This document shows positions 5,120 through 40,910 of a DNA stretch of 41,009 bases, in pieces. Position 1 is the first letter of the stretch. Every line of letters starts with the position of its first letter. Both the position numbers and the translations under genes were made by a program. The stretch spans positions 1-41,009 of the forward strand of contig NZ_QEIO01000038.1 of assembly GCF_003336425.1 (NCBI RefSeq), written 5' to 3'. Origin of the DNA: Marinitenerispora sediminis. GTDB taxonomy: Bacteria; Actinomycetota; Actinomycetes; Streptosporangiales; Streptosporangiaceae. The notes under the pieces were generated by a model. It had not been told where the DNA came from. It saw only the letters and a list, made by a program, of their open reading frames with translations, and searched no databases.

Positions 5120-6655
5120 ATGCCGCTGACCGTGCGGGAACTCGTCTCCCGGGGTGAGCTCGGGCTGTCCGTGGCGGCCGGCGCCGCCGGCCTGGACCGG
5201 CCGATCAGCTGGGTGCACGCCAGCGAGGTCCCCGATCCGACCCCGTGGCTGGACCCCGGATCGCTGGTGCTGACCACGGGGCTGGGCCACGACGGTCCGG
5301 CGTCCCTGGCCACCCTCGCGCGGCGCCTCGACGCCGCCGGCGCCGCCGGACTCGGCATCGGCGTGGACGTGGTGCACACCGCCGTCCCCGAGGAGGTCGT
5401 CCGCGCGGGGGACTCGACCGGCCTGCCCGTCCTCGTGGTGCCCTACGCGACCCCGTTCGTCGCGATCGCGCGCGCGGTGGCGCGCCGCGTCGCGGAGGAG
5501 GAGCGCGCGGCGCTGCAGCGGGCCCTGGACGTGCACCGGCGGCTCACCGGCGCCGTGCTCGACCACGGCGCCGCGCCCGGCGCGGTCCGGGTCCTCGCCC
5601 GGGAGCTGGGCGGGCGGGCCGCGGTCGTCGACCGCGCGGGGCGCTGCCTCGCCGCGGGGCCCGAGGACGCCGCCGGCGAGGTCGGCGGGCTGCTCGACGG
5701 GCTGCGGCCGGCCGACGGGCGGCGGCGCTCCCTCTCGGTCGCCGGGCCGCGGCGGCACCTGCTCGGCTACCCGCTGGGTACGGAAGGGACCCGCGGCCAC
5801 CTGCTGGTATGGCGGGAGAGCCCGTTCGCCGGCACCGACCACGGGGTGGTGGCGGCGGCCGCCTCGCTGGTGACCTACGAGCTGGAGCTGCAGCGCTCGG
5901 CGCTCGCCCGGGCCCGGCGCTCCAGCGCGGACGCGGTGCGCGAGGTGCTGCGCGAGGGCGCGGCCCCGGCCACCGCCGCCCGCCTGGTGACCTCGTGGGG
6001 TATCGACCCCGAGCGCGTCGTGGTGATCCTGCTCGGCCGGGCGCCGGAGGCCGGCGACGAGGACGCGGAGGACGTGCACGACGTGCTGGCCGACCAGGAC
6101 GTGCCGGCGCTGGCCTGCTCCACCGACTGGGGTGAGACCGTGCTGCTCACGACCCGCGCGGACCTGGTGATCGACGCCCTGCGCGCGTCGGCGGAGCGCC
6201 GGGGGCGCGACCTCTCGGGCGGGGTCGGGGTCAGCGACGTGCTGACCGCCGCCGAGCTCGCCGACGGGCTGCGGCAGGCCCGGCAGGCCCTGGCGATCGG
6301 CCGCAAGGAGGGGCGGACGGTGACGTCGGTACGCGACCTCAGCGTCGTGGAGCTGCTGCTCGCGTCGGCGGAGCGCTCCATCCCCGAGACCCTGGTGCGG
6401 CGGCTGGTCGACCCGCTCCGCCGCGCCGAGGAGGAGCGCGGCGTCCCCCTCGTCGCGACGGTGCGGGCCTTCCTGGAGCACAACGGGTCCGTGGCGGACG
6501 CGTCGGCCGAGCTGGGCGTGCACCGCCACACGCTGCGGTCGCGGCTGGACGCCGTCCGGCAGGTGCTCGGCCGGGACCTCGACTCCTCCTACGTGCGCCT
6601 GGAGCTCGCGATCGCGCTGCAGGCTCAGGCGCTGCGCGCGGACTCCGCCGACTGA
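5120..6655 (+). CDS. PucR-family transcriptional regulator
   Basis: A 511-residue regulator. The N-terminal PucR domain (about 1-125) starts MPLTVRELVSRGELGLSVAAG and includes WVHASEVPDPTPWL and VLTTGLG. The middle is a GGDEF-like/CdaR-type region, and the C-terminus carries the PucR helix-turn-helix (ASAELGVHRHTLRSRLDAV). ATG 5120 is chosen over an ATG 60 bases upstream because GGAGGGGA (5104-5111) precedes it by eight bases. PucR proteins often control purine or other nitrogen catabolism. The converging ureohydrolase-symporter pair is the obvious candidate target, though no operator could be defined. Its last 31 bases overlap the 3' end of the symporter gene on the other strand. Confidence 0.88.
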   Translation: MPLTVRELVSRGELGLSVAAGAAGLDRPISWVHASEVPDPTPWLDPGSLVLTTGLGHDGPASLATLARRLDAAGAAGLGIGVDVVHTAVPEEVVRAGDSTGLPVLVVPYATPFVAIARAVARRVAEEERAALQRALDVHRRLTGAVLDHGAAPGAVRVLARELGGRAAVVDRAGRCLAAGPEDAAGEVGGLLDGLRPADGRRRSLSVAGPRRHLLGYPLGTEGTRGHLLVWRESPFAGTDHGVVAAAASLVTYELELQRSALARARRSSADAVREVLREGAAPATAARLVTSWGIDPERVVVILLGRAPEAGDEDAEDVHDVLADQDVPALACSTDWGETVLLTTRADLVIDALRASAERRGRDLSGGVGVSDVLTAAELADGLRQARQALAIGRKEGRTVTSVRDLSVVELLLASAERSIPETLVRRLVDPLRRAEEERGVPLVATVRAFLEHNGSVADASAELGVHRHTLRSRLDAVRQVLGRDLDSSYVRLELAIALQAQALRADSAD

Positions 6656-8079
6656 GCGTTCGCCGCCGGATCGGCGCCCGGGGCCAGGTCCTCGAACGCC
6701 GGGGGCCGGACCTGCCCGCCCGGCCCGCCCCGCCGGGCCGCCAGGGTCACGCCCACGAACACGACCAGGCTGGCCGGCATGCCGTACATGACGGGCTCGT
6801 TGGCGTACAGCCCCGAGACCGCCATGAAGACGAGGCACACCGCGCTGCCCGCCGCGATGGACGCCAGAGCCGCCGCCCTGGTGGCCCGCCGCCAGAACAG
6901 CGCCCCGACCACCGGGACGAACAGCCCGGCGGCCAGCAGGTCGGCGGCCACGGTGACCGCGCCGACCACGCTGCTCATCGTGAAGGAGATCGCCAGGGCG
7001 ACCAGGCCGACGGCCAGCAGCGCGATCCGGTTCGCGCGGACGGTGGAGGCGCGCTCCCCCGCCAGCGGGCGCAGCAGGTCGTTGGTGAGGACGGTGGAGG
7101 AGCCGATGAGCAGCCCGCTCGCCGTCGACATCGACGCCGCGAGCGCGGCGGCGATGACGAGGCCGAAGACGCCGACGGGCAGCACCGCCTCGGCGATCCC
7201 CGCATAGGCGTCGTCGGGGTTGGCGAGGTCCGGCAGCAGCACCCGCCCGGCCGCACCCACGAGCGCGCCCGCCAGGCCGTACAGCGCGCAGTAGACGCCC
7301 GAGGCCACCGCTCCCCACCGGGCGACCGCCACCGAGCGCGCGGTGAACAGCCGCTGCCAGTTCCCCTGGTCGATCATGAAGCCGAAGAAGAACAGCAGGA
7401 AGTAGGCGCCGATCGTGCCCAGGCCGATGCCGGTCGGCGAGAAGTAGGAGTCGGGCAGCTCGGCGCGCATGGCCGGCAGCCCGCCGACCGCGTGCACCGT
7501 GAGCGGCAGCAGCACCGCGAAGATGCCGACCGTCTTGATGAGGAACTGGATGACGTCGGTCAGCGTGATGGACCACATGCCGCCCGCCACGCTGTACACC
7601 ATGATGACGGCCCAGCCGACCAGCGCGGCCGCGCCGGTGGACATGCCGAACACGACGGTGAGCACGGTGCCGATGGCGACGATCTGGCTGACGCCGACCA
7701 TGAGCGTGTAGAAGACGACCACCGCGGAGCTCATCACGCGCGACTCCGCGCCGAACCTGCGGTGCAGCGCCTCGGGGACCGTGTAGACGCCGCCGCGGAA
7801 CAGCTTGCCGGCGAAGAACACCCCGATCGCCGCGATGCCGAGGGCGAGCGACAGCACCAGCCACATGCCGGAGACGCCGTACTGGTAGCCGAGGCTGATG
7901 CCGCCGACGGTGGAGGCGCCGCCGAGCACGACCGTGCTCATCGCTGAGGTGTACATGAACGGCCCCAGGCGGCGGCCGGCGACGGTGAAGTCCTGCGCGG
8001 TCCGGCTGCGGCGCATGCCGATGTAGCCGGCCACGACCATCGCCGCGAAGTAGGCGACGATGACGAGCTTGTCGATCAC
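6625..8079 (-). CDS. Sodium:solute symporter (SSS family)
   Basis: A 484-residue inner-membrane protein with about 13 hydrophobic segments. Seen directly: the N-terminal TM with GYIGMRRSRTAQDFTVAGR, the GGASTVGGISLGYQYGVSGMW loop, FGFMIDQGNWQRLFTAR and ALAASMSTASGLLIGSSTV, the SSS core containing sodium-site residues. The C-terminal tail is hydrophilic. It is translated from GTG one base after the TGA of the ureohydrolase gene, a sign of tight coupling. It probably imports the substrate of that enzyme (a guanidino compound, amide or purine breakdown product), but substrate choice cannot be read from the sequence. The gene end overlaps pucR by 31 bases. Confidence 0.88.
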   Translation of the reverse strand: MIDKLVIVAYFAAMVVAGYIGMRRSRTAQDFTVAGRRLGPFMYTSAMSTVVLGGASTVGGISLGYQYGVSGMWLVLSLALGIAAIGVFFAGKLFRGGVYTVPEALHRRFGAESRVMSSAVVVFYTLMVGVSQIVAIGTVLTVVFGMSTGAAALVGWAVIMVYSVAGGMWSITLTDVIQFLIKTVGIFAVLLPLTVHAVGGLPAMRAELPDSYFSPTGIGLGTIGAYFLLFFFGFMIDQGNWQRLFTARSVAVARWGAVASGVYCALYGLAGALVGAAGRVLLPDLANPDDAYAGIAEAVLPVGVFGLVIAAALAASMSTASGLLIGSSTVLTNDLLRPLAGERASTVRANRIALLAVGLVALAISFTMSSVVGAVTVAADLLAAGLFVPVVGALFWRRATRAAALASIAAGSAVCLVFMAVSGLYANEPVMYGMPASLVVFVGVTLAARRGGPGGQVRPPAFEDLAPGADPAANAQSAESARSA

Positions 8080-8080
8080 G

Positions 8081-9043
8081 TCAGTCGTCCTCTCCGGCCG
8101 CGGCGCCGGCGGCCGCGGCGCCGTGCACGACCAGGTGCGCCACCAGGTAGGCGGCGAGGTTGGCCGTCTGGTCCCGCAGGTCGGTCAGCGGGTTGACCTC
8201 GGTCAGCACCATGGCGTGCACGTGCGGCGCCAGGCGCTGCACCAGCCGGACCGCCTGGAAGGAGGTGAGCCCCCCGGGTTCGTGCGCGCCGGCCCCCGGG
8301 GCGTGCGCCGGGTCGACGGCGTCGATGTCGAACGCCAAGAGTACGCGGTCGGCGCCGCTGACGTGCGCGATCACCTCGTCGACGACGTCGTCGACGCCTC
8401 GTTCGTGGATGGCGGTGGCGGGGATGTTGCGCAGCCCGCGCTCCTCCCGGAACCGCAGCGAGGAGGGGAAGTTGAAGTGCCGGGAGGCCAGCTGGATCGA
8501 GGAGGCGATATCCAGGTTGGGCAGTTCGGCGGCGCGCCGCATGCCCGAGGAGTGGCTGTGGGTACCCTGCTGCTCGTTGCGGTCCAGTAGGTCGAGGTGC
8601 GCGTCGAGGTGGATGACGGCCACCGTTCCGTCGGCGGCCTCGGCCAGTCCGCGGGCGGCGGGGTACAGCAGCGAGTCGTCACCCCCGAGGAGCACGGGGA
8701 TCCGGCCTGCCCGGACGGCGCCGCGGACCCCGTCGGCCGCGGCGTCCAGGGTGGCCGCCAGGTCGTGGGCGACGGTGTGCACGTCGCCGCCGTCGGTCAG
8801 CAGGTCGTCGGGGAAGGGGTGGGTGGTGCCGTGGTCGAGGCAGTAGATCCGGCCGTCCTCCCGGCGCTGGAGCATCCACCCCAGCGCCGCCCGGATCCGC
8901 TCCGGCGCGTAGCGGCTGCCCGGCCATCCCAGGGTGGCGGCGCCGTCGAAGGGAGCGCCGAGCAGCTCGAAGCGGCGCGGGGGCAGCGGATCGGCGCCGG
9001 GGCGACCGGAGGCGGGGGCGGCTGCGGCGTGCTGTGCGGGCAT
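8081..9043 (-). CDS. Ureohydrolase (agmatinase/arginase/formiminoglutamase family) with altered metal motif
   Basis: A 320-residue member of the Mn-dependent ureohydrolase family. Conserved motifs: DAHLDLLD (DAHxD metal ligands), SHSSGMRRA, and FDIDAVDPAHAPG (the DxD ligands and PxxxPG signature). The usual GGDHS motif reads GGDDS here, with Asp123 replacing the first metal-binding His. This may change metal occupancy or substrate. ATG 9043 has GAGGAG five bases upstream. It is the first gene of a unit with the SSS symporter, and PucR converges on the pair. The likely role is hydrolysis of agmatine, guanidinobutyrate, guanidine or formiminoglutamate; these cannot be distinguished by eye. Confidence 0.85.
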   Translation of the reverse strand: MPAQHAAAAPASGRPGADPLPPRRFELLGAPFDGAATLGWPGSRYAPERIRAALGWMLQRREDGRIYCLDHGTTHPFPDDLLTDGGDVHTVAHDLAATLDAAADGVRGAVRAGRIPVLLGGDDSLLYPAARGLAEAADGTVAVIHLDAHLDLLDRNEQQGTHSHSSGMRRAAELPNLDIASSIQLASRHFNFPSSLRFREERGLRNIPATAIHERGVDDVVDEVIAHVSGADRVLLAFDIDAVDPAHAPGAGAHEPGGLTSFQAVRLVQRLAPHVHAMVLTEVNPLTDLRDQTANLAAYLVAHLVVHGAAAAGAAAGEDD

Positions 9044-9800
9044 GCGGCTCCTCGGAAACGCGTCTCGGCCCGCGGACCCGCGGGGACGGACCTGCGGATA
9101 TTTCCTCTGCGGATGATTCCGGCAATTCTCCGGGGCTGACGAAGCCGCTGCCTATGGCCCGCATGGCGAGTCAGCGGACCGCCGAACCGCCCACATGTCC
9201 ACTCAGCGGACGAACGGCACCGGAGAACGCGCGGCGCCGTGTCCGCGGCGGATTCCGGCGGTAGGACCATCCCCGCGCGCGGGGAGCAGGGCGGCCAAGT
9301 GGTCGTGCCATCGGCGACGTGGGGCGTCCCCGGTCGCGCGGGGAGCGGCACACCGCCGTTCTCCGCGGCGACGGGGCCATTACCCGCGTGCGTCGGGGAG
9401 CGCGAGGACGTCAGCTTCCACCCGATCGCGGGACCGGGGCCATCCCCGCGCGCAGCAGTCCCGCTGGCGGCGTCAGCAGGCCACAGCGCCCGTCCGGACC
9501 ACGCCCGGGAATTCTCACGGAGCACACGAAGGTCGCGCACACGTCCGCCCGACAGCGGCGGGAGGGGCGGAGGTCCGCGATCTCGGTGGCGAGGTCGGCG
9601 GCCTTCGCTTCCCCCGCCTTCTTCCCGGCCGGTCCCTGGCTCGCTGGGCCCGCCGCGAAGCGCGGCCGTGGACGGAGCCGGAGACGCGCCCCCGCCCGGC
9701 GGGCGAGGCCGGTCCCGCCTGGACGCCTGGGCGTCATCGGCCGGCAGGCGCCCCATAGGCTTGTCCGGCTACGGGGACAGCGGGGCGAGGGCGGGGACGC
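9044..9800. other. Long non-coding interval with CRISPR-like relic
   Basis: No credible protein gene is seen in these 757 bases. The left part (9090-9160) is AT-richer and should hold the promoter of the minus-strand ureohydrolase unit. Bases 9264-9525 carry five degenerate CRISPR-like repeats (separate entry). The remainder up to the CadD start shows nothing recognisable. Confidence 0.5.
9264..9525. CRISPR. Decayed type I-E-like CRISPR array, about five degenerate repeats
   Basis: Related units begin near 9264, 9322, 9374, 9437 and 9496 (periods 58, 52, 63 and 59). Each keeps parts of the actinobacterial type I-E pattern read in this direction: GG(A/G)CCATCCCCGC, then CGCGGGGAGC. Unit 1 has GGACCATCCCCGC and GCGCGGGGAGCAG. 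Unit 2 has GTCCCCGGTCGCGCGGGGAGC. Units 3-5 are more diverged, and unit 5 keeps GGACCA and GGAGCAC. Spacer-like gaps are about 33, 24, 33 and 32 bases. No cas genes are in the window. The repeats are not identical, so this is either a relic or a coincidence in GC-rich DNA; the regular spacing favours a relic. Confidence 0.5.
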
Positions 9801-10412
9801 TTGACGAGTTCGGGGCTGATCGGGCAGGCAGCCGGGCTGTTCGCGGTCACCAACATCGACGACATCGTGATCTTGGCGCTGTTCTTCGCCAAGGGCGCCG
9901 GGCGTCCTGGTTCCGCGGCGCGGATCGTGGCGGGCCAGTATCTGGGGTTCGGGGCCATCCTGGTGGTGGCCATGGCGGCGGCGTTCGGGGCGACGTTCCT
10001 GCCCGAGGCGGCGCTCCCCTACCTGGGCCTGCTGCCGCTGCTGCTGGGGTTCAAGGCCGCGTGGGAGGCCTGGCGCGATCGCGGCACGGGCGGCGACGGC
10101 GGGCCGGATGCCGGGCCGTCCGGGGGAAGGGGCCCCGGCGTCCTGGAGGTCGCGGTGGTGACCTTCGCCAACGGCGGCGACAACATCGGGGTGTACGTTC
10201 CCGTGTTCGCCACGGCCGGGACCGGCGGGATGAGCGTGTACGCCACCGTGTTCCTGCTCCTGGTGGGCGTGTGGTGCGTGGCGGGGCGGGTCATCACCAG
10301 CCGGCCAGTGGTGGCTCGGGCGCTGAGCCGGTGGGGGCACATCCTGTTGCCGGTGGTGCTCATCGGTATCGGCCTGCTCATCCTCATCGAGGGCGGGGCC
10401 TTCGGCTGGTAG
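9801..10412 (+). CDS. CadD-family cadmium resistance/cation transporter
   Basis: A 203-residue membrane protein with five to six hydrophobic segments. Family hallmarks are the N-terminal TNIDDIVILALFFA and the mid-protein FANGGDNIGVYVPVFA, the paired Asp-containing motifs of CadD-like transporters. A hydrophilic Gly/Pro-rich loop (RDRGTGGDGGPDAG) separates the halves. The start is probably TTG 9801; no ATG or GTG with a better ribosome site was found, so the start is less certain. Family members give cadmium resistance in firmicutes; substrate in actinomycetes is unproven. The gene stands alone and ends before a palindromic terminator shared with convergent corA. Confidence 0.8.
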   Translation: MTSSGLIGQAAGLFAVTNIDDIVILALFFAKGAGRPGSAARIVAGQYLGFGAILVVAMAAAFGATFLPEAALPYLGLLPLLLGFKAAWEAWRDRGTGGDGGPDAGPSGGRGPGVLEVAVVTFANGGDNIGVYVPVFATAGTGGMSVYATVFLLLVGVWCVAGRVITSRPVVARALSRWGHILLPVVLIGIGLLILIEGGAFGW

Positions 10413-29067: not shown

Positions 29068-31137
29068 CTAGCCGAACAGCTCGTCGTGGACGGCGAAGGC
29101 CGTCGCCACGTCGACCTGCGCCCAGAAGCGGTGGTAGGTGAAGGTGGGTGCCTCGCCGCCGTTGAGGTAGGCCTCGACCTGCGGCCAGTCGGGGTCGTCC
29201 TCGTAGAACGACCGGATGGAGGAGAAGGTCGCACCCGGCCGGACCTGGTCGCCGTTGGCCATCTGGCCGGACCAGCCCTGCGGGATGTAGACCTCGTCGT
29301 CGAACCGCTGGTAGTCCGCGCGGACCTCCTCGGTGGCGATGCCGATGGCGTCCCGGTTGGCCAGCAGCGCGTCCAGCAGCCCCTCGCCCATGGCGCGGGC
29401 GTCGGCGTCGCCGGAGCCGGCGGCGTAGTAGAGCAGCGTCTTGGCGAGCCCCGCGGCCACCCCGACGTCCTGCCCGTGGGAGGTCACCTCCACGTGCAGT
29501 CCGGAGTTGCCGGTGGGCGTTCCGGTCCAGGTGTCGGGCTGGCCGCTCCACCGCATGTCGGCGGGCACCTGGAAGTCCCCGCCGGTGCCGACCGTGGTGT
29601 TGGCCATGGCCCACGGCACCCAGTTGTCGAGGATGTCCTTGGCACGCTGGTCGCCGGTGGTCTGGTAGAGCTGGGCCACGCGCTCCATGCCCCACACCTG
29701 GAAGCCGAACCACTGGTTGGACGGCGGGTCGTGCCAGACGGGCTGCCAGTCGTAGTACATCCCGTAGAACTGCGCGGAGCCGGCGGGCGGCTGGCCGTAG
29801 TCGCCTCCCCAGCTGTTGGTCGCGCCGCCGGCGATGCCGCCCTCGGCCGACTGCAGCCACTGGAGGAACTCCAGCTGCCGGTCCATGCTGACCGCCCAGT
29901 CGGCGGCGCCGGTGGCCGACTCCGGCTCCAGGGCGTCGACCTCGGACAGCGCGTAGGCGGCGAGCGGGTTCTGGTAGCCCTGGTGGGCGGAGCTGCCGCC
30001 GATCCGCCAGGCCCACGGGTACTGCGCGTTCTGCAGCGCGCCGCCCCAGGCGTAGTACCACGACATCAGGTAGTGCGCGCTGTTCTTACCGCTGCCGGGA
30101 GCGCAGGAGGTCGCGCCCACGCAGTCGCCGACGCGTTTGAAGTACTTGTCGTACATCGCGTAGCGCAGGTAGTCGCCCATCCTGGCGGCGTCGGCCACCG
30201 GACCGGCGACGGCGTCGGCGTTGCCCTGCTCGCCGGCCCAGGTGTGCGCCAGGTAGGCCACCTGTACCGCGCGGGCGTCGGCGTCGGGGGCGTTGGTGTA
30301 GCGCCACTGCTGCGAGTAGTTGGAGTCGCGGGTGAACAGGTCGAGGAACCCGTTCGGGCCGCCGTGGTCGAACGTCTCGCAGGACGGGTGCGGCACCGTC
30401 TCCCACACCGACTCCTGCGAGCCGCGCTGGAAGGTGTTGATGTAGGCGGGCGCGTCGTCGCTGCCGTCGCCGCAGAAGCCGTACCCGTAGGTGTTGTCCA
30501 CGTCGAGCAGCCAGTGCATGCCGTAGATCTCGTCGGTGCCGTAGGTGCTGCTCAGCTCGTCGGCGAGGGGGTCCTGGCCGACGCGCACGCCGTTGTCCAG
30601 CGGTGAGGGGTACCCCTGCGGGGTGTCGTGCTCGGCGATGTAGGTGGCCGGCGAGGCCGGGTTGTAGGAGGCGTTGGTGGGCTGGTCCGCGGTGCCCGGG
30701 ATGATGAACGCCTCCATCGCCGCCCACGCGTCGTTGAACGGCTGCCAGTCACCGGTGATGCGGCCGTAGGCGGCCTCCAGCCAGAGGTAGTAGCTGAACG
30801 CCTCGGAGGTGGTGGCGTGCCCGTGGTCCGGCGCCTCGACGATGAGGGTCTCGACGGAGTGGTAGGGCACGAGCAGCCCGTCGAACTCGCGGAAGTACCC
30901 GTTGGCCGGGTCCTTGATCTTCTCGTACTGCTCCAGGAAGGCGTCGTCGTAGGCGGAGACGGCGACCGGGGGCTCGGCGTCCCGGGCGGCGTCGGCGGCG
31001 GGCCGGGACGGGGCGTCGGCCGGGGCCGCGGCGGCCGCGGCGGGGAGGGCGGTGGCGGTCAGGGCCACCGCCAGGGCGCCCGGCAGCAGCCCCGTGCGGA
31101 GCAGCCGGGCCGGCAGCGCCGGCAGTGGGGGTCTCAT
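29068..31137 (-). CDS. Secreted GH48 exocellulase (reducing-end cellobiohydrolase)
   Basis: A 689-residue enzyme. The signal peptide spans about residues 1-38 (hydrophobic GALAVALTATALPAAAAAAP). The GH48 domain fills the rest: YEKIKDPANGYF, PYHSVETLIVEAPDHGHATT (containing the region of the catalytic Glu), SYYLWLEAAYGRITGDW, IYGMHWLLDVDNTYGYG and YLMSWYYAWGG. GH48 enzymes release cellobiose processively from the reducing ends of cellulose. Unlike the Thermobifida enzyme of this family, which carries a CBM2, no binding module follows. ATG 31137 has GGGAGG 11 bases upstream. Expression is probably controlled by the CelR-type box at 31246-31259. It diverges from the xylanase gene. Confidence 0.92.
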   Translation of the reverse strand: MRPPLPALPARLLRTGLLPGALAVALTATALPAAAAAAPADAPSRPAADAARDAEPPVAVSAYDDAFLEQYEKIKDPANGYFREFDGLLVPYHSVETLIVEAPDHGHATTSEAFSYYLWLEAAYGRITGDWQPFNDAWAAMEAFIIPGTADQPTNASYNPASPATYIAEHDTPQGYPSPLDNGVRVGQDPLADELSSTYGTDEIYGMHWLLDVDNTYGYGFCGDGSDDAPAYINTFQRGSQESVWETVPHPSCETFDHGGPNGFLDLFTRDSNYSQQWRYTNAPDADARAVQVAYLAHTWAGEQGNADAVAGPVADAARMGDYLRYAMYDKYFKRVGDCVGATSCAPGSGKNSAHYLMSWYYAWGGALQNAQYPWAWRIGGSSAHQGYQNPLAAYALSEVDALEPESATGAADWAVSMDRQLEFLQWLQSAEGGIAGGATNSWGGDYGQPPAGSAQFYGMYYDWQPVWHDPPSNQWFGFQVWGMERVAQLYQTTGDQRAKDILDNWVPWAMANTTVGTGGDFQVPADMRWSGQPDTWTGTPTGNSGLHVEVTSHGQDVGVAAGLAKTLLYYAAGSGDADARAMGEGLLDALLANRDAIGIATEEVRADYQRFDDEVYIPQGWSGQMANGDQVRPGATFSSIRSFYEDDPDWPQVEAYLNGGEAPTFTYHRFWAQVDVATAFAVHDELFG

Positions 31138-31245
31138 GGTGCGGACAACCTCCCGAGGTTGACGGGACGCGGGGGCGTTCCCGGGGGTCGCTCGGACCGG
31201 GAGCGGGCCGTGGCGGACGCCCGGAACGGGAACGGATCTTCGTCA

Positions 31246-31259
31246 TGGGAGCGCTTCCA
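31246..31259. promoter_or_regulatory. CelR/CebR-type operator upstream of GH48
   Basis: TGGGAGCGCTTCCA matches 13 of 14 bases of the palindromic CelR/CebR site TGGGAGCGCTCCCA. In Thermobifida and Streptomyces this LacI-family site is released by cellobiose or cello-oligosaccharides. It lies three bases downstream of a candidate -10 on the minus strand. Confidence 0.8.
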
Positions 31260-31262
31260 TGG

Positions 31263-31291
31263 ATGGTAATCAGTTTGCAACAACCTGTAAA
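31263..31291 (-). promoter_or_regulatory. Promoter of GH48 gene
   Basis: On the minus strand TTTACA (31291-31286), a 17-base spacer, TACCAT (31268-31263). The CelR-type box overlaps the expected transcription start, and the untranslated leader would be about 120 bases. Confidence 0.5.
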
Positions 31292-31511
31292 CAGCACATT
31301 TCCCGATCACCTGGCGACCCGCCCGCGACCCCCGCCAGCGATCTTCCCGGGACGGATTCCACCGTCGAATCACCCGGAATTCGGACGGCGCACCGAGCAC
31401 TCGATGCCCGGAACCGGAAATCGATCCCTATCCGCCCGCGAACCGGAATCGGGAACGGGCGCCGATGCGGCGGACCGCCGCACCGCGCGGGAATTCGCCG
31501 CGAAACACCAC

Positions 31512-31540
31512 TTTCACGTTCGGTTAACGAATGTTACATT
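31512..31540 (+). promoter_or_regulatory. Candidate promoter of the xylanase gene
   Basis: TTTCAC (31512-31517), 17 bases, TACATT (31535-31540). The -10 lies inside a perfect inverted repeat (31528-31542), and the CelR-type box starts 13 bases downstream. The -35 match is weak. Confidence 0.35.
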
Positions 31541-31542
31541 CG
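31528..31542. promoter_or_regulatory. Perfect 15-base inverted repeat at the xylanase promoter
   Basis: CGAATGTTACATTCG has seven-base arms around a single T and covers the candidate -10. It differs from the CelR box and could bind a second, perhaps xylan-responsive, repressor. Confidence 0.45.
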
Positions 31543-31553
31543 TCGGCAACCGA

Positions 31554-31567
31554 TGGGAGCGTTCCCA
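31554..31567. promoter_or_regulatory. CelR/CebR-type operator upstream of the xylanase
   Basis: TGGGAGCGTTCCCA matches 13 of 14 bases of the CelR/CebR palindrome and lies 56 bases before the xylanase ATG, near the expected transcription start. Confidence 0.78.
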
Positions 31568-31622
31568 TACATTCACACCGCTCCCCCGCCACCACCGGAG
31601 AGCACCGGAGAAGGACGGACCG

Positions 31623-34600
31623 ATGCACAGCGACGAGACCCCCGCGCCGCGGACCCGCTCCCGCCGGCACGGCATCCTGCTCACCGCGCTCGTGTGCGCG
31701 CTCGGCGTGCTCGCGCCGGGCGCCGCGCACGCCGACACCGGTGCGGCGGGCGGCGCGCTGCGCCAGCACGCCGCCGCGCGCGGCGTGCAGATCGGCGCCG
31801 GCATCGAGGCCGGCCCCCTCGCCGACGAGGCCCCCTACCGCGACACCCTGGCCCGCGAGTTCAACGCCGTCACCCCCGGAAACGAGATGAAGTGGGGCTC
31901 GCTGGAACCGCAGCGCGGCCAGTACCGCTGGGGCCCCGCCGACCAGATCGTGTCCTTCGCCCGGGCCAACGGCCAGCAGGTCCGGGGCCACACGCTGGTC
32001 TGGCACAACCAGCAGCCGTCCTGGCTCAGCAACGGCCAGTTCACCTCCGCCGAACTGCGCGGCATCCTGGAGAACCACATCCGGGTGACCGCCGGCCGCT
32101 ACAGCGGCCAGCTCTACGCCTGGGACGTCGTCAACGAGCCGTTCGACGAGGACGGCAGCCTGCGCGACACCATCTGGTCGCGCAACCTCGGGGAGGGCTA
32201 CATCGCCGACGCCTTCCAGTGGGCGCGGGCGGCCGACCCGCACGCCCGGCTCTACCTGAACGACTACAACATCGAGGGCCTCAACGCCAAGAGCGACGCC
32301 ATGTACGACCTGGTGCGCAGGTTGAAGGCCCAGGGCGTGCCCATCGACGGCGTCGGCTTCCAGGCGCACTTCATCCTCGGACAGGTGCCCGCCACCTTCG
32401 AGGCGAACCTGCGCCGGTTCGCCGAACTGGGCGTGGACGTGGCCGTCACCGAACTCGACGTCCGGATCCCCACGCCGGCCGACTCCGCGGAGCTCCAGCA
32501 GCAGGCCCGCGACTACGCCGCCGTCACGTCGGCCTGCCTGGCGGTGAGCCGCTGCACCGGCGTCACCATCTGGGGCATCACCGACAAGTACTCGTGGATC
32601 CCCGACTGGTTCCCGGGCTACGGCGCGGCGCTGCCCTTCGACACCGCCTACCAGCCCAAGCCCGCCTACCACGCGGTGCACGACACCCTGGCGGCGGCCG
32701 TGGTGGGCGGCGCACGAAGGAGCAAGGCGCACATGCGAACCCGACCGCGACTCGCCGCCATGGTGGCGGGTCTCCTGGTCGCCACCCTGGCCGGCACGGT
32801 GCAGGCCGTCCACGCCGACCCCGTCGGGGCGTCGGCCGGCGACTACGAGTGGAACAACGTCGAGATCGTCGGCGGCGGCTTCGTCCCCGGCATCGTCTTC
32901 AACCAGTCCGAACCCGACCTCGTCTACGCGCGCACCGACATCGGCGGCGCCTACCGGCTGGACCCCGGCACCGGCCGGTGGGTCCCGCTGCTGGACTGGA
33001 TCGGCTGGGACGACTGGAACCTGACCGGGATCGTCAGCCTGGCCACCGACCCGGTCGACACCGACCGCGTCTACGCCGCCGCCGGCACCTACACCAACGA
33101 CTGGACGTCGGACAACGGCGCCATCCTCCGGTCCAGCGACCGCGGCGCCACCTGGCAGCGCACCGACCTGCCGTTCAAACTCGGCGGCAACATGCCCGGC
33201 CGCGGCATGGGCGAGCGGCTGGCCGTCGACCCCAACGACAACCGGATCCTCTACCTCGGCGCGCCGAGCGGCAACGGGCTGTGGCGCAGCACCGACCACG
33301 GCGCCACCTGGTCGAAGGTGACCTCCTTCCCCAACCCCGGCGACTACGTGCAGGACCCCGGCGACTCCAGCGGCTACCTCTCCGACCGGCAGGGCGTCAT
33401 CTGGGTCGCCTTCGACCCGGAGAGCGGCGCGGAGGGCCGGGCCAGCCAGGACATCTACGTCGGTGTCGCCGACAAGGAGAACACCGTCTACCGCTCCACC
33501 GACGGCGGGGCGAGCTGGCAGCGGATCCCCGGCCAGCCGACCGGGTACCTCGCGCACAAGGGGGTGCTCGACCACGAGAACGGCTTCCTCTACATCGCCA
33601 CCAGTGACACCGGCGGCCCCTACGACGGCGGCGCCGGCGACGTGTGGAAGTTCGCCACCGGGACCGGCGAGTGGACCCGGATCAGCCCGGTCCCCTCCGA
33701 CGACGAGGACAACTACTTCGGCTACAGCGGGCTGACCATCGACCGGCAGGACCCGGAGACGATCATGGTCGCCACCCAGATCTCCTGGTGGCCGGACGTG
33801 ATCTTCTTCCGCAGCACCGACGGCGGTGCCACCTGGTCCCCGATCTGGGAGTGGGCCGACTACCCCAACCGGACCATGCGCTACCGGATGGACGTGTCGG
33901 GCGCCCCGTGGCTGACGTTCGGGCAGCACCCCGCGCCGCCGGAGACCACCCCGAAGCTGGGCTGGATGACCGAGTCGCTGGAGATCGACCCGTTCGACTC
34001 CGACCGGATGATGTACGGCACCGGCGCCACCGTCTACGGCTCGCGGGACCTGACCGCCTGGGACCGGGACGAGCAGATCACCATCGAGGTGATGGCCCAG
34101 GGGCTGGAGGAGACGGCGGTCAACGACCTGGTCAGCCCGCCGGCCGGCGCTCCCCTGGTCAGCGCGCTCGGCGACATCGGCGGGTTCCGGCACGACGACC
34201 TGGGCCGGGTGCCCGCCCGGATGTTCACCAGCCCCAACTTCGACAGCACGACCAGCCTCGACTTCGCCGAGAAGAGCCCCAACGTGCTGGTCCGGTCCGG
34301 TAACTTCGACCGATCAGCCCGGCCGAACGACCGCGGCGTCGCCTTCTCCACGGACGGCGGGTCGAACTGGTTCCAGGGCTCCGAGCCAGGCGGGGTCACC
34401 GGCGGGGGGACCGTGGCGGCCGCCGCCGACGGCAGCCGGTTCGTCTGGTCGCCGCAGGGCACCGGCGTCCACCACACGGCCGGGTTCGGCAACTCCTGGC
34501 AGCCGTCGCAGGGCATCCCGGCCGGCGCGGTCGTGGAGGCGGACCGGGAGGACCCCAGCGTCTTCTACGGGTTCTCGGGCGGCCGATTCTACGTCAGCAC

Positions 34601-35042
34601 CGACGGCGGGCGGAGCTTCACCGCCACGGCAGCCTCCGGGCTGCCCGGCTCCGGCGACGTCCGGTTCAAGGCGCTCCCCGGCTCCGCCGGCGACATCTGG
34701 CTGGCCGGCGGCACCGAGGGCGGCACGTACGGCCTGTGGCACTCCACCGACCGGGGCGCCTCCTTCACCCGGGTCGCCGGTGTGGACGAGGCCGACAGCA
34801 TCGGCTTCGGCCGCGCCGCACCCGGCAGCTCCTACCCCGCCCTCTACACCAGCGCCAGGATCGGCGGCGTGCGGGGCATCTTCCGCTCCGACGACGCCGG
34901 CGCCTCCTGGGTGCGGATCAACGACGACCAGCACCAGTGGGCGTGGACCGGCGCCGCGATCACCGGCGACCCGCGGGTGTACGGGCGGGTCTACGTGTCC
35001 ACCAACGGGCGCGGGATCGTCTACGGCGAACCCGGGTCCTGA
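31623..35042 (+). CDS. Secreted GH10 endo-xylanase, reading frame continuous with GH74
   Basis: ATG 31623 follows GGAGAAGGA (31607-31615). A twin-Arg-containing signal peptide (RSRRHGILLTALVCALGVLAPGAAHA) precedes a GH10 barrel covering about residues 43-360. The acid/base Glu172 lies in WDVVNEPFDE and the nucleophile Glu277 in VTELDVRI. The barrel ends normally at PAYHAVHDTLAAA. Instead of a linker, CBM and stop codon, the frame runs on through VVGGARRSKAH into the methionine, signal peptide and catalytic domain of the GH74 enzyme, giving 1139 codons in all. The enzyme cleaves internal xylan bonds outside the cell. Whether a fusion protein, two proteins or both are made is unknown. Confidence 0.85.
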   Translation: MHSDETPAPRTRSRRHGILLTALVCALGVLAPGAAHADTGAAGGALRQHAAARGVQIGAGIEAGPLADEAPYRDTLAREFNAVTPGNEMKWGSLEPQRGQYRWGPADQIVSFARANGQQVRGHTLVWHNQQPSWLSNGQFTSAELRGILENHIRVTAGRYSGQLYAWDVVNEPFDEDGSLRDTIWSRNLGEGYIADAFQWARAADPHARLYLNDYNIEGLNAKSDAMYDLVRRLKAQGVPIDGVGFQAHFILGQVPATFEANLRRFAELGVDVAVTELDVRIPTPADSAELQQQARDYAAVTSACLAVSRCTGVTIWGITDKYSWIPDWFPGYGAALPFDTAYQPKPAYHAVHDTLAAAVVGGARRSKAHMRTRPRLAAMVAGLLVATLAGTVQAVHADPVGASAGDYEWNNVEIVGGGFVPGIVFNQSEPDLVYARTDIGGAYRLDPGTGRWVPLLDWIGWDDWNLTGIVSLATDPVDTDRVYAAAGTYTNDWTSDNGAILRSSDRGATWQRTDLPFKLGGNMPGRGMGERLAVDPNDNRILYLGAPSGNGLWRSTDHGATWSKVTSFPNPGDYVQDPGDSSGYLSDRQGVIWVAFDPESGAEGRASQDIYVGVADKENTVYRSTDGGASWQRIPGQPTGYLAHKGVLDHENGFLYIATSDTGGPYDGGAGDVWKFATGTGEWTRISPVPSDDEDNYFGYSGLTIDRQDPETIMVATQISWWPDVIFFRSTDGGATWSPIWEWADYPNRTMRYRMDVSGAPWLTFGQHPAPPETTPKLGWMTESLEIDPFDSDRMMYGTGATVYGSRDLTAWDRDEQITIEVMAQGLEETAVNDLVSPPAGAPLVSALGDIGGFRHDDLGRVPARMFTSPNFDSTTSLDFAEKSPNVLVRSGNFDRSARPNDRGVAFSTDGGSNWFQGSEPGGVTGGGTVAAAADGSRFVWSPQGTGVHHTAGFGNSWQPSQGIPAGAVVEADREDPSVFYGFSGGRFYVSTDGGRSFTATAASGLPGSGDVRFKALPGSAGDIWLAGGTEGGTYGLWHSTDRGASFTRVAGVDEADSIGFGRAAPGSSYPALYTSARIGGVRGIFRSDDAGASWVRINDDQHQWAWTGAAITGDPRVYGRVYVSTNGRGIVYGEPGS
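32733..35042 (+). CDS. Secreted GH74 xyloglucanase (internal start within the GH10 reading frame)
   Basis: ATG 32733 is preceded by GAAGGAG (32716-32722) at ten bases and begins a typical signal peptide (RLAAMVAGLLVATLAGTVQAVHA). The product would be 769 residues. The two seven-bladed propellers of GH74 show many sialidase-type repeats (SxDxGxxW, for example RSTDGGATW). Catalytic Asp69 (TDIGGAYR) and Asp481 (GDIGGFRH) are at the family positions. It hydrolyses the xyloglucan backbone. No CBM2 follows, unlike Thermobifida Xg74. No stop codon separates it from the upstream xylanase, so it may also be translated as the C-terminal part of a fusion. Confidence 0.88.
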   Translation: MRTRPRLAAMVAGLLVATLAGTVQAVHADPVGASAGDYEWNNVEIVGGGFVPGIVFNQSEPDLVYARTDIGGAYRLDPGTGRWVPLLDWIGWDDWNLTGIVSLATDPVDTDRVYAAAGTYTNDWTSDNGAILRSSDRGATWQRTDLPFKLGGNMPGRGMGERLAVDPNDNRILYLGAPSGNGLWRSTDHGATWSKVTSFPNPGDYVQDPGDSSGYLSDRQGVIWVAFDPESGAEGRASQDIYVGVADKENTVYRSTDGGASWQRIPGQPTGYLAHKGVLDHENGFLYIATSDTGGPYDGGAGDVWKFATGTGEWTRISPVPSDDEDNYFGYSGLTIDRQDPETIMVATQISWWPDVIFFRSTDGGATWSPIWEWADYPNRTMRYRMDVSGAPWLTFGQHPAPPETTPKLGWMTESLEIDPFDSDRMMYGTGATVYGSRDLTAWDRDEQITIEVMAQGLEETAVNDLVSPPAGAPLVSALGDIGGFRHDDLGRVPARMFTSPNFDSTTSLDFAEKSPNVLVRSGNFDRSARPNDRGVAFSTDGGSNWFQGSEPGGVTGGGTVAAAADGSRFVWSPQGTGVHHTAGFGNSWQPSQGIPAGAVVEADREDPSVFYGFSGGRFYVSTDGGRSFTATAASGLPGSGDVRFKALPGSAGDIWLAGGTEGGTYGLWHSTDRGASFTRVAGVDEADSIGFGRAAPGSSYPALYTSARIGGVRGIFRSDDAGASWVRINDDQHQWAWTGAAITGDPRVYGRVYVSTNGRGIVYGEPGS

Positions 35043-35261
35043 CGGCGGCTCCCCAGCGGCCGCCGCCCCCGTCGAGCGAGCGCCCCGGCGCTCCGGAAGC
35101 GAGGTACCCCCGACCGGCCGCGCGGACGGACCGCGCCCGCGCGGCCCCGGGCGCGGCCCGCCGCGCCCGGCCGAAGCCCCCGTCCCCCTCTCCGCGCCGC
35201 CCCGACCGGCCGCGCGGCCCATCCGAACGCTCGCACCCCCACCACAGGAAGGAGCAGACCC

Positions 35262-36551
35262 GTGCGACTCGGACGCCGCCTCGCCCTGGCGGGCGCCCTC
35301 GCCGGGCTCACCGGGCTCTTCGTCACCGCACCGCCGGCGGACGAGGCCCTGGCCCACGGAGGGCTCACCTATCCCGCCACCCGCACCTACGCCTGCTATG
35401 TCGACGCCGTCGGCGGCGGCAGCGGAGGCGCGCTGAACCCGACCAACCCGGCCTGCGCCCAGGCGCTGCGGGAGGGCGGCCAGTACGCCTTCTACAACTG
35501 GTTCGGCAACCTCATCAGCGACGCCGCCGGCCGGCACCGCGAGGTCATCGCCGACGGCGAACTGTGCGGTCCCTCCGACAGCTTCGACGCCTTCAACGCC
35601 CCGCACGACGAGTGGCCGACCACCGAACTGGAGTCCGGCGCCGGCATCACCTTCCGGTACAACGCGTGGGCGCCGCACCCGGGGACCTGGTACCAGTACG
35701 TCACCAAGGACGGCTGGGACCCGGACCAGCCGCTCACCTGGGACGACCTGGAGCCGGTGCCGTTCGACGAGGTCACCAACCCGCCCATCGACGGCGAGGG
35801 ACCGCACGGCCGGGAGTACACCTGGGACGCCACGCTGCCCGAGAAGAGCGGCCGGCACATCATCTACTCGATCTGGGAGCGCTCCGACAGCCCGGAGGCG
35901 TTCTACAACTGCTCCGACGTGGTGTTCACCGGCGGCGACGGCGGCGGGGACGCCGAGGCCCCCGACGCGCCGGGCGCGCCCACGGCCACCGGGCCCACCG
36001 CGGACAGCGTCCAGCTGCAGTGGCCGGCCGCCAGCGACAACGTGCGGGTGACCGGCTACGAGGTGCGCGACGCCGAAAGCGACAAGGTCGTCGCCTCGAC
36101 CACCCAGACCTCGGCCCGCGTCACGGGCCTCACCCCCGAGACCGACTACGAGTTCACCGTGGTGGCGAGGGACGCCGCCGGCAACCGGTCCGCGCCCTCG
36201 GCGCCGGTCGCGGTGACCACCGGCGGCGCCCCGAACCCCGGCTACTGCTCGGTGGACTTCCGCGTCACCAGCCGGTGGTCGCAGGGCTACTCCAGCCAGG
36301 TGACCGTGTCCAACACCGGCGGCGGCGCGATCAGCGGCTGGGACCTGGAGTGGTACTTCCTCGGCGACGAGCGGGTGGCCAGCGGCTGGTCGGGCACGTT
36401 CGCCCAGTCCGGCAAGCGTGTCTCCGTCTCCGGTACCGGCTCCATCGCGCCCGGCGCGTCGGTGGGCTTCGGGTTCAACGCCGACACCCAGCGGCCGGTC
36501 ACCGAACCCGACTACTTCACCCTCAACGGCACCCCCTGCGCGACCGTCTGA
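35262..36551 (+). CDS. AA10 lytic polysaccharide monooxygenase with FnIII and CBM2
   Basis: A 429-residue secreted copper enzyme. The signal peptide (1-31) ends ALA, leaving His32 (HGGLTYPATR) as mature N-terminus and first ligand of the histidine brace. The second is His139 in WAPHPGTWYQYVTKDG. The AA10 domain ends near 225 (YNCSDVVF). An FnIII domain follows (about 235-320, PDAPGAPTATGPTADSVQLQW to PVAVTT), then a C-terminal CBM2 (about 326-429, CSVDFRVTSRW to GTPCATV). It should oxidatively cleave crystalline cellulose. GTG 35262 has AAGGAG seven bases upstream. Lying 219 bases after GH74 with no separate CelR box, it is probably co-transcribed. Confidence 0.92.
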   Translation: MRLGRRLALAGALAGLTGLFVTAPPADEALAHGGLTYPATRTYACYVDAVGGGSGGALNPTNPACAQALREGGQYAFYNWFGNLISDAAGRHREVIADGELCGPSDSFDAFNAPHDEWPTTELESGAGITFRYNAWAPHPGTWYQYVTKDGWDPDQPLTWDDLEPVPFDEVTNPPIDGEGPHGREYTWDATLPEKSGRHIIYSIWERSDSPEAFYNCSDVVFTGGDGGGDAEAPDAPGAPTATGPTADSVQLQWPAASDNVRVTGYEVRDAESDKVVASTTQTSARVTGLTPETDYEFTVVARDAAGNRSAPSAPVAVTTGGAPNPGYCSVDFRVTSRWSQGYSSQVTVSNTGGGAISGWDLEWYFLGDERVASGWSGTFAQSGKRVSVSGTGSIAPGASVGFGFNADTQRPVTEPDYFTLNGTPCATV

Positions 36552-36605: not shown

Positions 36606-36703
36606 CTCCTCAGCGCCCGCGGCGGCCGGAGCGGGCGCGGCGCCCCCTGCCGCCGCCCCTCCTCGCGGGCGCGCCGGCGCGCGGATCGGGCATGCTGGCG
36701 TCC

Positions 36704-37192
36704 ATGCTGATCCGAGACGCCCTGCCCGCCGACTGGCCGCAGATCTGGCCGTTCCTCCGCCGCATCGTGGCGGCCGGCGAGACCTACACCTGGGACCCGG
36801 ACGTGACCGAGGACCGCGCCCGCGCGCTGTGGCTGCCGGAGCCGCCCGGGCGCGCGGTCGTCGCCGTCGCCGACGACGGGACCGTCATGGGTTCGGCGAA
36901 GCTGCACCCCAACCAGGCGGGGCCGGGCGCGCACGTGGCCGGCGCGAGCTTCATGGTGCACCCCGACCACGCCGGCCGCGGGATCGGCCGCGCCCTGGGC
37001 GAGCACGTCATCGCGCGCGCCCGGGCCGACGGCTACCGCGCGATGCAGTTCAACGCGGTCGTGGCGACCAACACCCCGGCGGTGGCGCTGTGGCGTTCGC
37101 TCGGCTTCGCGGTGCTGGCCACAGTCCCGGAGGCGTTCCGGCACCCCGTGCACGGGTTCGTGGGCCTGCACGTGATGCACCGCCGGCTGTGA
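36704..37192 (+). CDS. GNAT-family N-acetyltransferase
   Basis: A 162-residue protein. Seen: MLIRDALPADWPQIWPFLRR, the central strand GASFMVHPDHAGRGIGRALGEH (acetyl-CoA binding motif A, Q/RxxGxG/A as RGIGRA), and motif B NTPAVALWRSLGF. The acceptor is unknown; relatives acetylate amino acids, phosphinothricin or proteins. The ATG at 36704 is used; an in-frame ATG at 36692 adds four residues, and neither has a clear ribosome site. It stands alone after the LPMO terminator. Confidence 0.85.
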   Translation: MLIRDALPADWPQIWPFLRRIVAAGETYTWDPDVTEDRARALWLPEPPGRAVVAVADDGTVMGSAKLHPNQAGPGAHVAGASFMVHPDHAGRGIGRALGEHVIARARADGYRAMQFNAVVATNTPAVALWRSLGFAVLATVPEAFRHPVHGFVGLHVMHRRL

Positions 37193-40896: not shown

Positions 40897-40910
40897 TGGG
40901 AGCGCTCCCG
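40897..40910. promoter_or_regulatory. CelR/CebR-type operator at the right edge
   Basis: TGGGAGCGCTCCCG differs from the CelR/CebR palindrome only at the last base. It lies six bases after the -10 at 40885-40890, covering the transcription start, and predicts a cellulolytic gene immediately to the right. Confidence 0.8.

Follow-up and report, generated by a model that had tools for sequence, protein, structure and literature searches.

How two secreted plant-wall hydrolases, each with its own signal peptide, come to lie in one uninterrupted reading frame is the question raised by a locus of Marinitenerispora sediminis. The window analysed here is a whole contig of 41,009 nt, NZ_QEIO01000038.1 of assembly GCF_003336425.1. 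On its forward strand, a single open frame runs from an ATG at 31623 to a stop at 35040-35042 and encodes 1139 amino acids. A signal peptide, a xylanase of glycoside hydrolase family 10 (GH10), a tail of 9 residues, seven codons resembling a gene leader, a second ATG, a second signal peptide and a xyloglucanase of family 74 (GH74) follow one another in this order. Mechanically, the frame is open further upstream, as far as a GTG at 31125. An earlier note on this DNA had described the same frame, with both enzymes complete, GH74 equipped with its own ribosome-binding site, ATG and signal peptide, and no stop after the GH10 barrel; all of this agrees with the results below, and the number of stop codons between the two halves is zero.

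The GH10 half matches Pfam PF00331 over residues 46-354 (E 1.6e-117, 392.7 bits with a cut-off of 22.1), is further backed by matches to solved relatives, and carries the motifs WDVVNE (E172) and TELD (E277), which place it in the family. The GH74 half matches solved xyloglucanases over residues 408-1136, 6p2o being the top one with 1175.7 bits, and has the motifs of its family, RTDIGG (D439) and LGDIGG (D851). We take the glutamates of the first pair of motifs and the aspartates of the second to be the catalytic residues. The frame holds two catalytic domains, as is characteristic of a bifunctional glycoside hydrolase, and a chance open frame in noncoding DNA was ruled out because both halves are conserved enzymes. 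No carbohydrate-binding module (CBM) family was matched in the Pfam search anywhere in the fused frame, the stretch between the two enzymes included. The GH10 gene is present in only one copy in the M. sediminis genome.

At the junction, codon usage changes abruptly. Over the GH48, GH10, GH74 and lytic polysaccharide monooxygenase (LPMO) genes (2248 codons), the G+C content at third codon positions is 0.974, and the strong bias towards codons ending in G or C continues through codon 363. Codons 364-366 are GCA CGA AGG, all of them rare (4 of 277 alanine codons for GCA; 6 and 4 of 123 arginine codons for CGA and AGG, respectively), and three of the six CGA codons sit in the first six codons of GH74. 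We take the break at codon 364 to mark a putative old coding end and the start of an old leader. Its AAGGAG is separated by a 10-nt spacer from the internal ATG at 32733. The second signal peptide, codons 371-398, was assessed against orthologues; the Kyte-Doolittle mean of its most hydrophobic stretch of 19 residues is 1.85, against an orthologue median of 1.78. Cleavage sites of signal peptides were placed by eye.

Comparison with relatives shows what the locus looks like without GH10. Among the matches listed, the genome of the same family with the best GH74 match, G224, is 79-81% identical in this part (79% over query residues 365-1136). Its CBM2-GH48 gene diverges from GH74-CBM2 with no GH10 between them, and the GH48 proteins of the two genomes share 84% identity. 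A 77-nt block with a CelR-type palindrome stands upstream of GH74 in G224 and upstream of GH10 in M. sediminis, while around the GH74 ATG 17 of 19 nt are the same as in the G224 leader (other orthologous leaders are similar by eye). With the shared promoter block ahead of it and the retained leader behind it, GH10 sits in what was once the leader of GH74. Elsewhere in its genome G224 carries a GH10 of its own, directly followed by a CBM2, and this enzyme is 57-58% identical to the fused one; as the GH74 and GH48 pairs reach 81-84%, the fused GH10 is probably not a plain orthologue of it.

The palindrome itself was scanned for in the window using the consensus given in passages of PMC4697097. 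Two CelR-like sites with one mismatch each, at 31246 and 31554, lie between GH48 and GH10. Allowing up to two mismatches in 14 bp, four sites were found against 0.44 expected, a number reached by 1 of 100 shuffles. The operon may belong to a CelR regulon, with putative sites upstream of it. Perfect and one-mismatch CelR sites upstream of glycosyl hydrolases are described in sections of PMC3377646, according to which those with one mismatch may not all work. Further one-mismatch sites were seen at 35874-35887, within the LPMO gene, and at 40897-40910.

We favour, as the probable explanation, that GH10 came in behind the CelR-type promoter and ahead of the ribosome-binding site of GH74, so that a joint chain would be made and also GH74 initiated independently. 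GH10 would have come to sit there without its own stop. This stop may have disappeared along with the tail as the junction arose, or a single base change may have removed it afterwards. The old GH74 promoter, presumably induced by cellulose breakdown products, would now drive an mRNA covering both genes. Ribosomes starting at 31623 would produce a single secreted chain of ~ 118 kDa (118.5 kDa minus the first signal), with the old GH74 signal peptide serving as a linker, and those starting at the retained site at 32733 would produce ordinary secreted GH74 of ~ 79 kDa. Because no stop follows GH10, this enzyme would be made from its own start only within the long chain, barring a sequence error. 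Translation from both sites, one of the options in the earlier note, appears plausible as far as initiation is concerned: the ribosome-binding site and ATG are retained, the predicted minimum-energy fold leaves five of the six AAGGAG bases unpaired, and the internal start region is no more stably folded than shuffles (z 0.80). Three points weigh against the favoured explanation. The nearest family relative of the fused GH10 is only about 62-63% identical among the matches listed; the fusion is known from one genome of the genus, the only one representing it in the comparison set, and is read from assembled sequence; and whether a chain that carries a further signal peptide in its interior is exported would hinge on the translocon.

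The fusion was then sought in other genomes. The family search with the 1139-residue query (E 1e-100 or better) gave matches in 203 of 341 genomes, ranked by score, so that a good fused match would top the list. A GH74 row was listed for 149 other genomes (a count by eye); no match in them spans both domains, and these rows all start at query residue 325 or later. A sample of the class, overlapping with the family, gave matches in 40 of 296 genomes, and there only M. sediminis spans both domains; two GH10 rows pass the junction slightly, G199 to residue 406 and G298 to residue 376 (stop inside). Inspection of 101 GH74 loci with their flanks, short in some and including a few contigs taken twice, found no GH10 upstream of GH74 on the same strand, with little upstream DNA at some loci. 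The comparison of orthologous loci suggested in the earlier note did not reveal two ordinary adjacent genes with GH10 ahead of GH74; the GH74 genes inspected are separate ones, most of them with a C-terminal CBM2. The arrangement looks like a gene fusion confined to this lineage and not like a system of a new kind.

GH10 is near GH74 in two of the 101 loci. In Streptomyces exfoliatus NRRL B-2924 (L065:4001-7794), GH74-CBM2 is followed by GH10-CBM2 on the same strand, in reverse order compared with M. sediminis and in different frames. In L158 (genome G282; about 5602-9994 counting from the end, with GH74 turned onto the forward strand), GH10-CBM2 and GH74-CBM2 are divergent and ~ 0.6 kb apart, measured by matched stretches. 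Long open frames in front of GH74 in L150-L155, extending 428-897 codons ahead of the match, were considered as further fusions and taken to be out-of-frame readings, because of their low-complexity translations rich in arginine and proline and a codon-position GC that is highest at position 1 or 2.

The absence of a GH10 stop can be divided into two questions, the fate of the GH10 tail and the openness of the leader. Twenty-nine GH10 relatives, the best of the family, were compared: 26 extend at least 113 residues beyond the barrel to their stop, one is cut by the locus end and two stop right after the barrel. As most relatives have a tail, the fused GH10 either lost it or came from a tail-less gene. 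Of the deletion of a stop and CBM tail proposed in the earlier note, the missing tail is borne out; a tail-less ancestor, or for the stop a later base change, would also fit. For the leader, 97 orthologous GH74 leaders were taken from the 101 loci, after removal of duplicates and of loci where no stop or no start lay within reach. In 89 of them the 7 codons before the start, or more, read in frame without a stop; the final 21 nt, read in all three frames, gave 261 stop-free readings out of 291. Consequently, once the GH10 stop was gone, an open frame would hardly require more than a fitting phase, a chance of about 1 in 3. The unusual point is a GH10 gene without its own stop in that place; a stop-free leader is not rare.

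A sequence or consensus error could mimic this if a real GH10 stop lay within the GH74 ribosome-binding site or beside it; the locus would then consist of two ordinary operon genes. The assembly is a draft (6.01 Mb in 441 contigs). One transition at 32715 would create a TGA abutting AGGAG, where the G224 leader correspondingly has TGA, and three distinct one-base insertions would also yield a stop. Nevertheless, only 5 of 267 distinct one-base changes in codons 358-370 place a stop there (2 of 117 substitutions, 3 of 121 distinct insertions and none of 29 distinct deletions), while all other indels in these codons run on to stops 109 or 304 codons further. Both coding halves are otherwise unbroken, and the leaders of L012, L167 and L061 carry CGA instead of TGA before AGG (by eye), so that CGA needs no error. 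The indel or substitution that the earlier note wished to exclude has possible routes, but by this count we consider an error unlikely.

The fate of the long chain is addressed by the properties of the internal signal. One option in the earlier note was that a single exported chain is cut there by signal peptidase, which would occur after codon 398 (VHA) and would free GH10 and GH74. Inside the chain there is indeed an intact signal peptide whose cleavage site looks plausible. On the other hand, residues 358-378 contain six positive and no negative charges, which favours an N-inside signal, yet GH10, a soluble and exported enzyme, would already be outside. The Bradyrhizobium cytochrome b/c1 polyprotein (fbcH), a precedent, is likewise one frame with an internal signal peptide ahead of its second protein, but its first protein is a membrane protein that ends in the cytoplasm. 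Literature searches on internal signal peptides of bacterial polyproteins brought up nothing relevant, nor fbcH, and in one case only papers on viruses. Conservation lends no support either, with one genome of the genus. The insertion estimate of +2.3 kcal/mol (a crude sum on a membrane-insertion scale) does not suggest a strong membrane anchor. The charges are typical of a signal at the start of a chain and not of one after an exported domain, and we therefore consider passage of the whole chain through the translocon likelier than cleavage at the internal signal. Release of two enzymes by signal peptidase, although possible, is disfavoured by this topology and appears improbable. More improbable again is the combined case, in which the two hydrolases would be exported as one chain and split by signal peptidase, with the internal start adding GH74; if true, one gene would set the ratio of GH10 to GH74.

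The fusion could also be a near-neutral accident in the course of decay, with the long chain caught in the membrane or broken down and only the GH74 made at the internal start of any use. By searches for CBM2, GH6 and GH9, the cellulase set of M. sediminis does look reduced, with two CBM2 modules, one GH6 and no GH9 match in the genome. One CBM2, the only match in the window, is within the LPMO, and the other is in a 264-residue frame on contig C258; GH6, whose gene is complete, GH10, GH48 and GH74 are all bare of it. These genes and modules lie at 29068-36551 of the window and on contigs C19 and C258. By eye, the 149 other GH74-bearing family genomes listed have 7 to 14 CBM2 each, with a ceiling of 14 candidates scored per genome, and G168, a strong match from a genome only 63% complete, has three. 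Counts of just 1-5 are also found in many family genomes for which no GH74 row was listed, which weighs against over-reading the low count. The missing GH10 tail fits what may be a wider shortage of CBM2 on the cellulases of this species. Against decay, GH10 retains its catalytic residues and an unbroken frame and is the sole GH10 of the genome, and we regard such an accident as quite unlikely.

Bifunctional hydrolases of the Caldicellulosiruptor type have a single N-terminal signal peptide, unlike the M. sediminis chain, which has another complete start site and signal peptide where the enzymes join. In Caldicellulosiruptor bescii, Xyn10C/Cel48B consists of GH10, CBMs and GH48, and another protein is GH74-CBM3b-CBM3b-GH48, as outlined in parts of PMC6892212 and PMC5865380. 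These resemble the M. sediminis protein in joining two different plant-wall hydrolases, one of them GH10 or GH74, in one secreted chain. They differ, according to the same parts, in the CBMs between their catalytic domains, which the M. sediminis chain lacks. The GH74-CBM2 xyloglucanases of the family and of Streptomyces are orthologous to the M. sediminis GH74 in domain, leader, start and signal peptide, but they are separate genes, mostly with a C-terminal CBM2 and in none of the 101 loci behind GH10, whereas here GH74 is fused and without CBM2. In the portions consulted of a survey of 217 multi-activity proteins, GH74 is not among the families included (PMC4928363). The strings GH10-GH74, GH74-GH10 and GH74-GH48 occurred in no paper found, an absence of strings only, given that the GH74/GH48 protein is described in other words. 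Chains of two enzymes were already known; this one stands apart in having no CBM and in keeping an entire start site and signal peptide between its halves. The fusion bears on the origin of bifunctional plant-wall enzymes, and the intact second start and export signal make it possible to ask how secretion deals with a signal peptide lying midway along an exported chain.

Table 1. Features of the fused frame and its surroundings, with positions in the window.
Feature	Positions	Strand	Basis
Promoter/operator block in front of GH10	31491-31567	+	blastn, 59/77 identical, E 4e-11, to the G224 GH74 upstream region
CelR-like operator (putative), one mismatch to the published palindrome	31554-31567	+	motif scan; consensus from passages of PMC4697097
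GH10 start and signal peptide, residues 1-37, twin arginine 14-15	31623-31733	+	sequence; cleavage by eye
GH10 xylanase catalytic domain and short tail to codon 363	31734-32711	+	Pfam, motifs, solved relatives
Codons 364-370, resembling a former GH74 leader, including ribosome-binding site AAGGAG (32717-32722)	32712-32732	+	codon counts, orthologous leaders
Internal ATG (codon 371) and GH74 signal peptide, codons 371-398	32733-32816	+	position as in orthologue N-termini
GH74 xyloglucanase without CBM2	32817-35042	+	solved relatives
GH48 cellulase, divergent, without CBM2	29068-31137	-	domain search; G224 counterpart is CBM2-GH48
LPMO_10-fn3-CBM2, downstream, with its own sequence resembling a ribosome-binding site	35262-36551	+	domain search

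Nine other long frames of the window and an acetyltransferase frame at 36647-37192 were also scanned with Pfam, in which only the acetyltransferase was matched. Among the loci L009-L080, many of those from Streptomyces have a GH48 gene, in most cases carrying CBM2, directly ahead of GH74 and on its strand, in place of the divergent arrangement of M. sediminis and G224.

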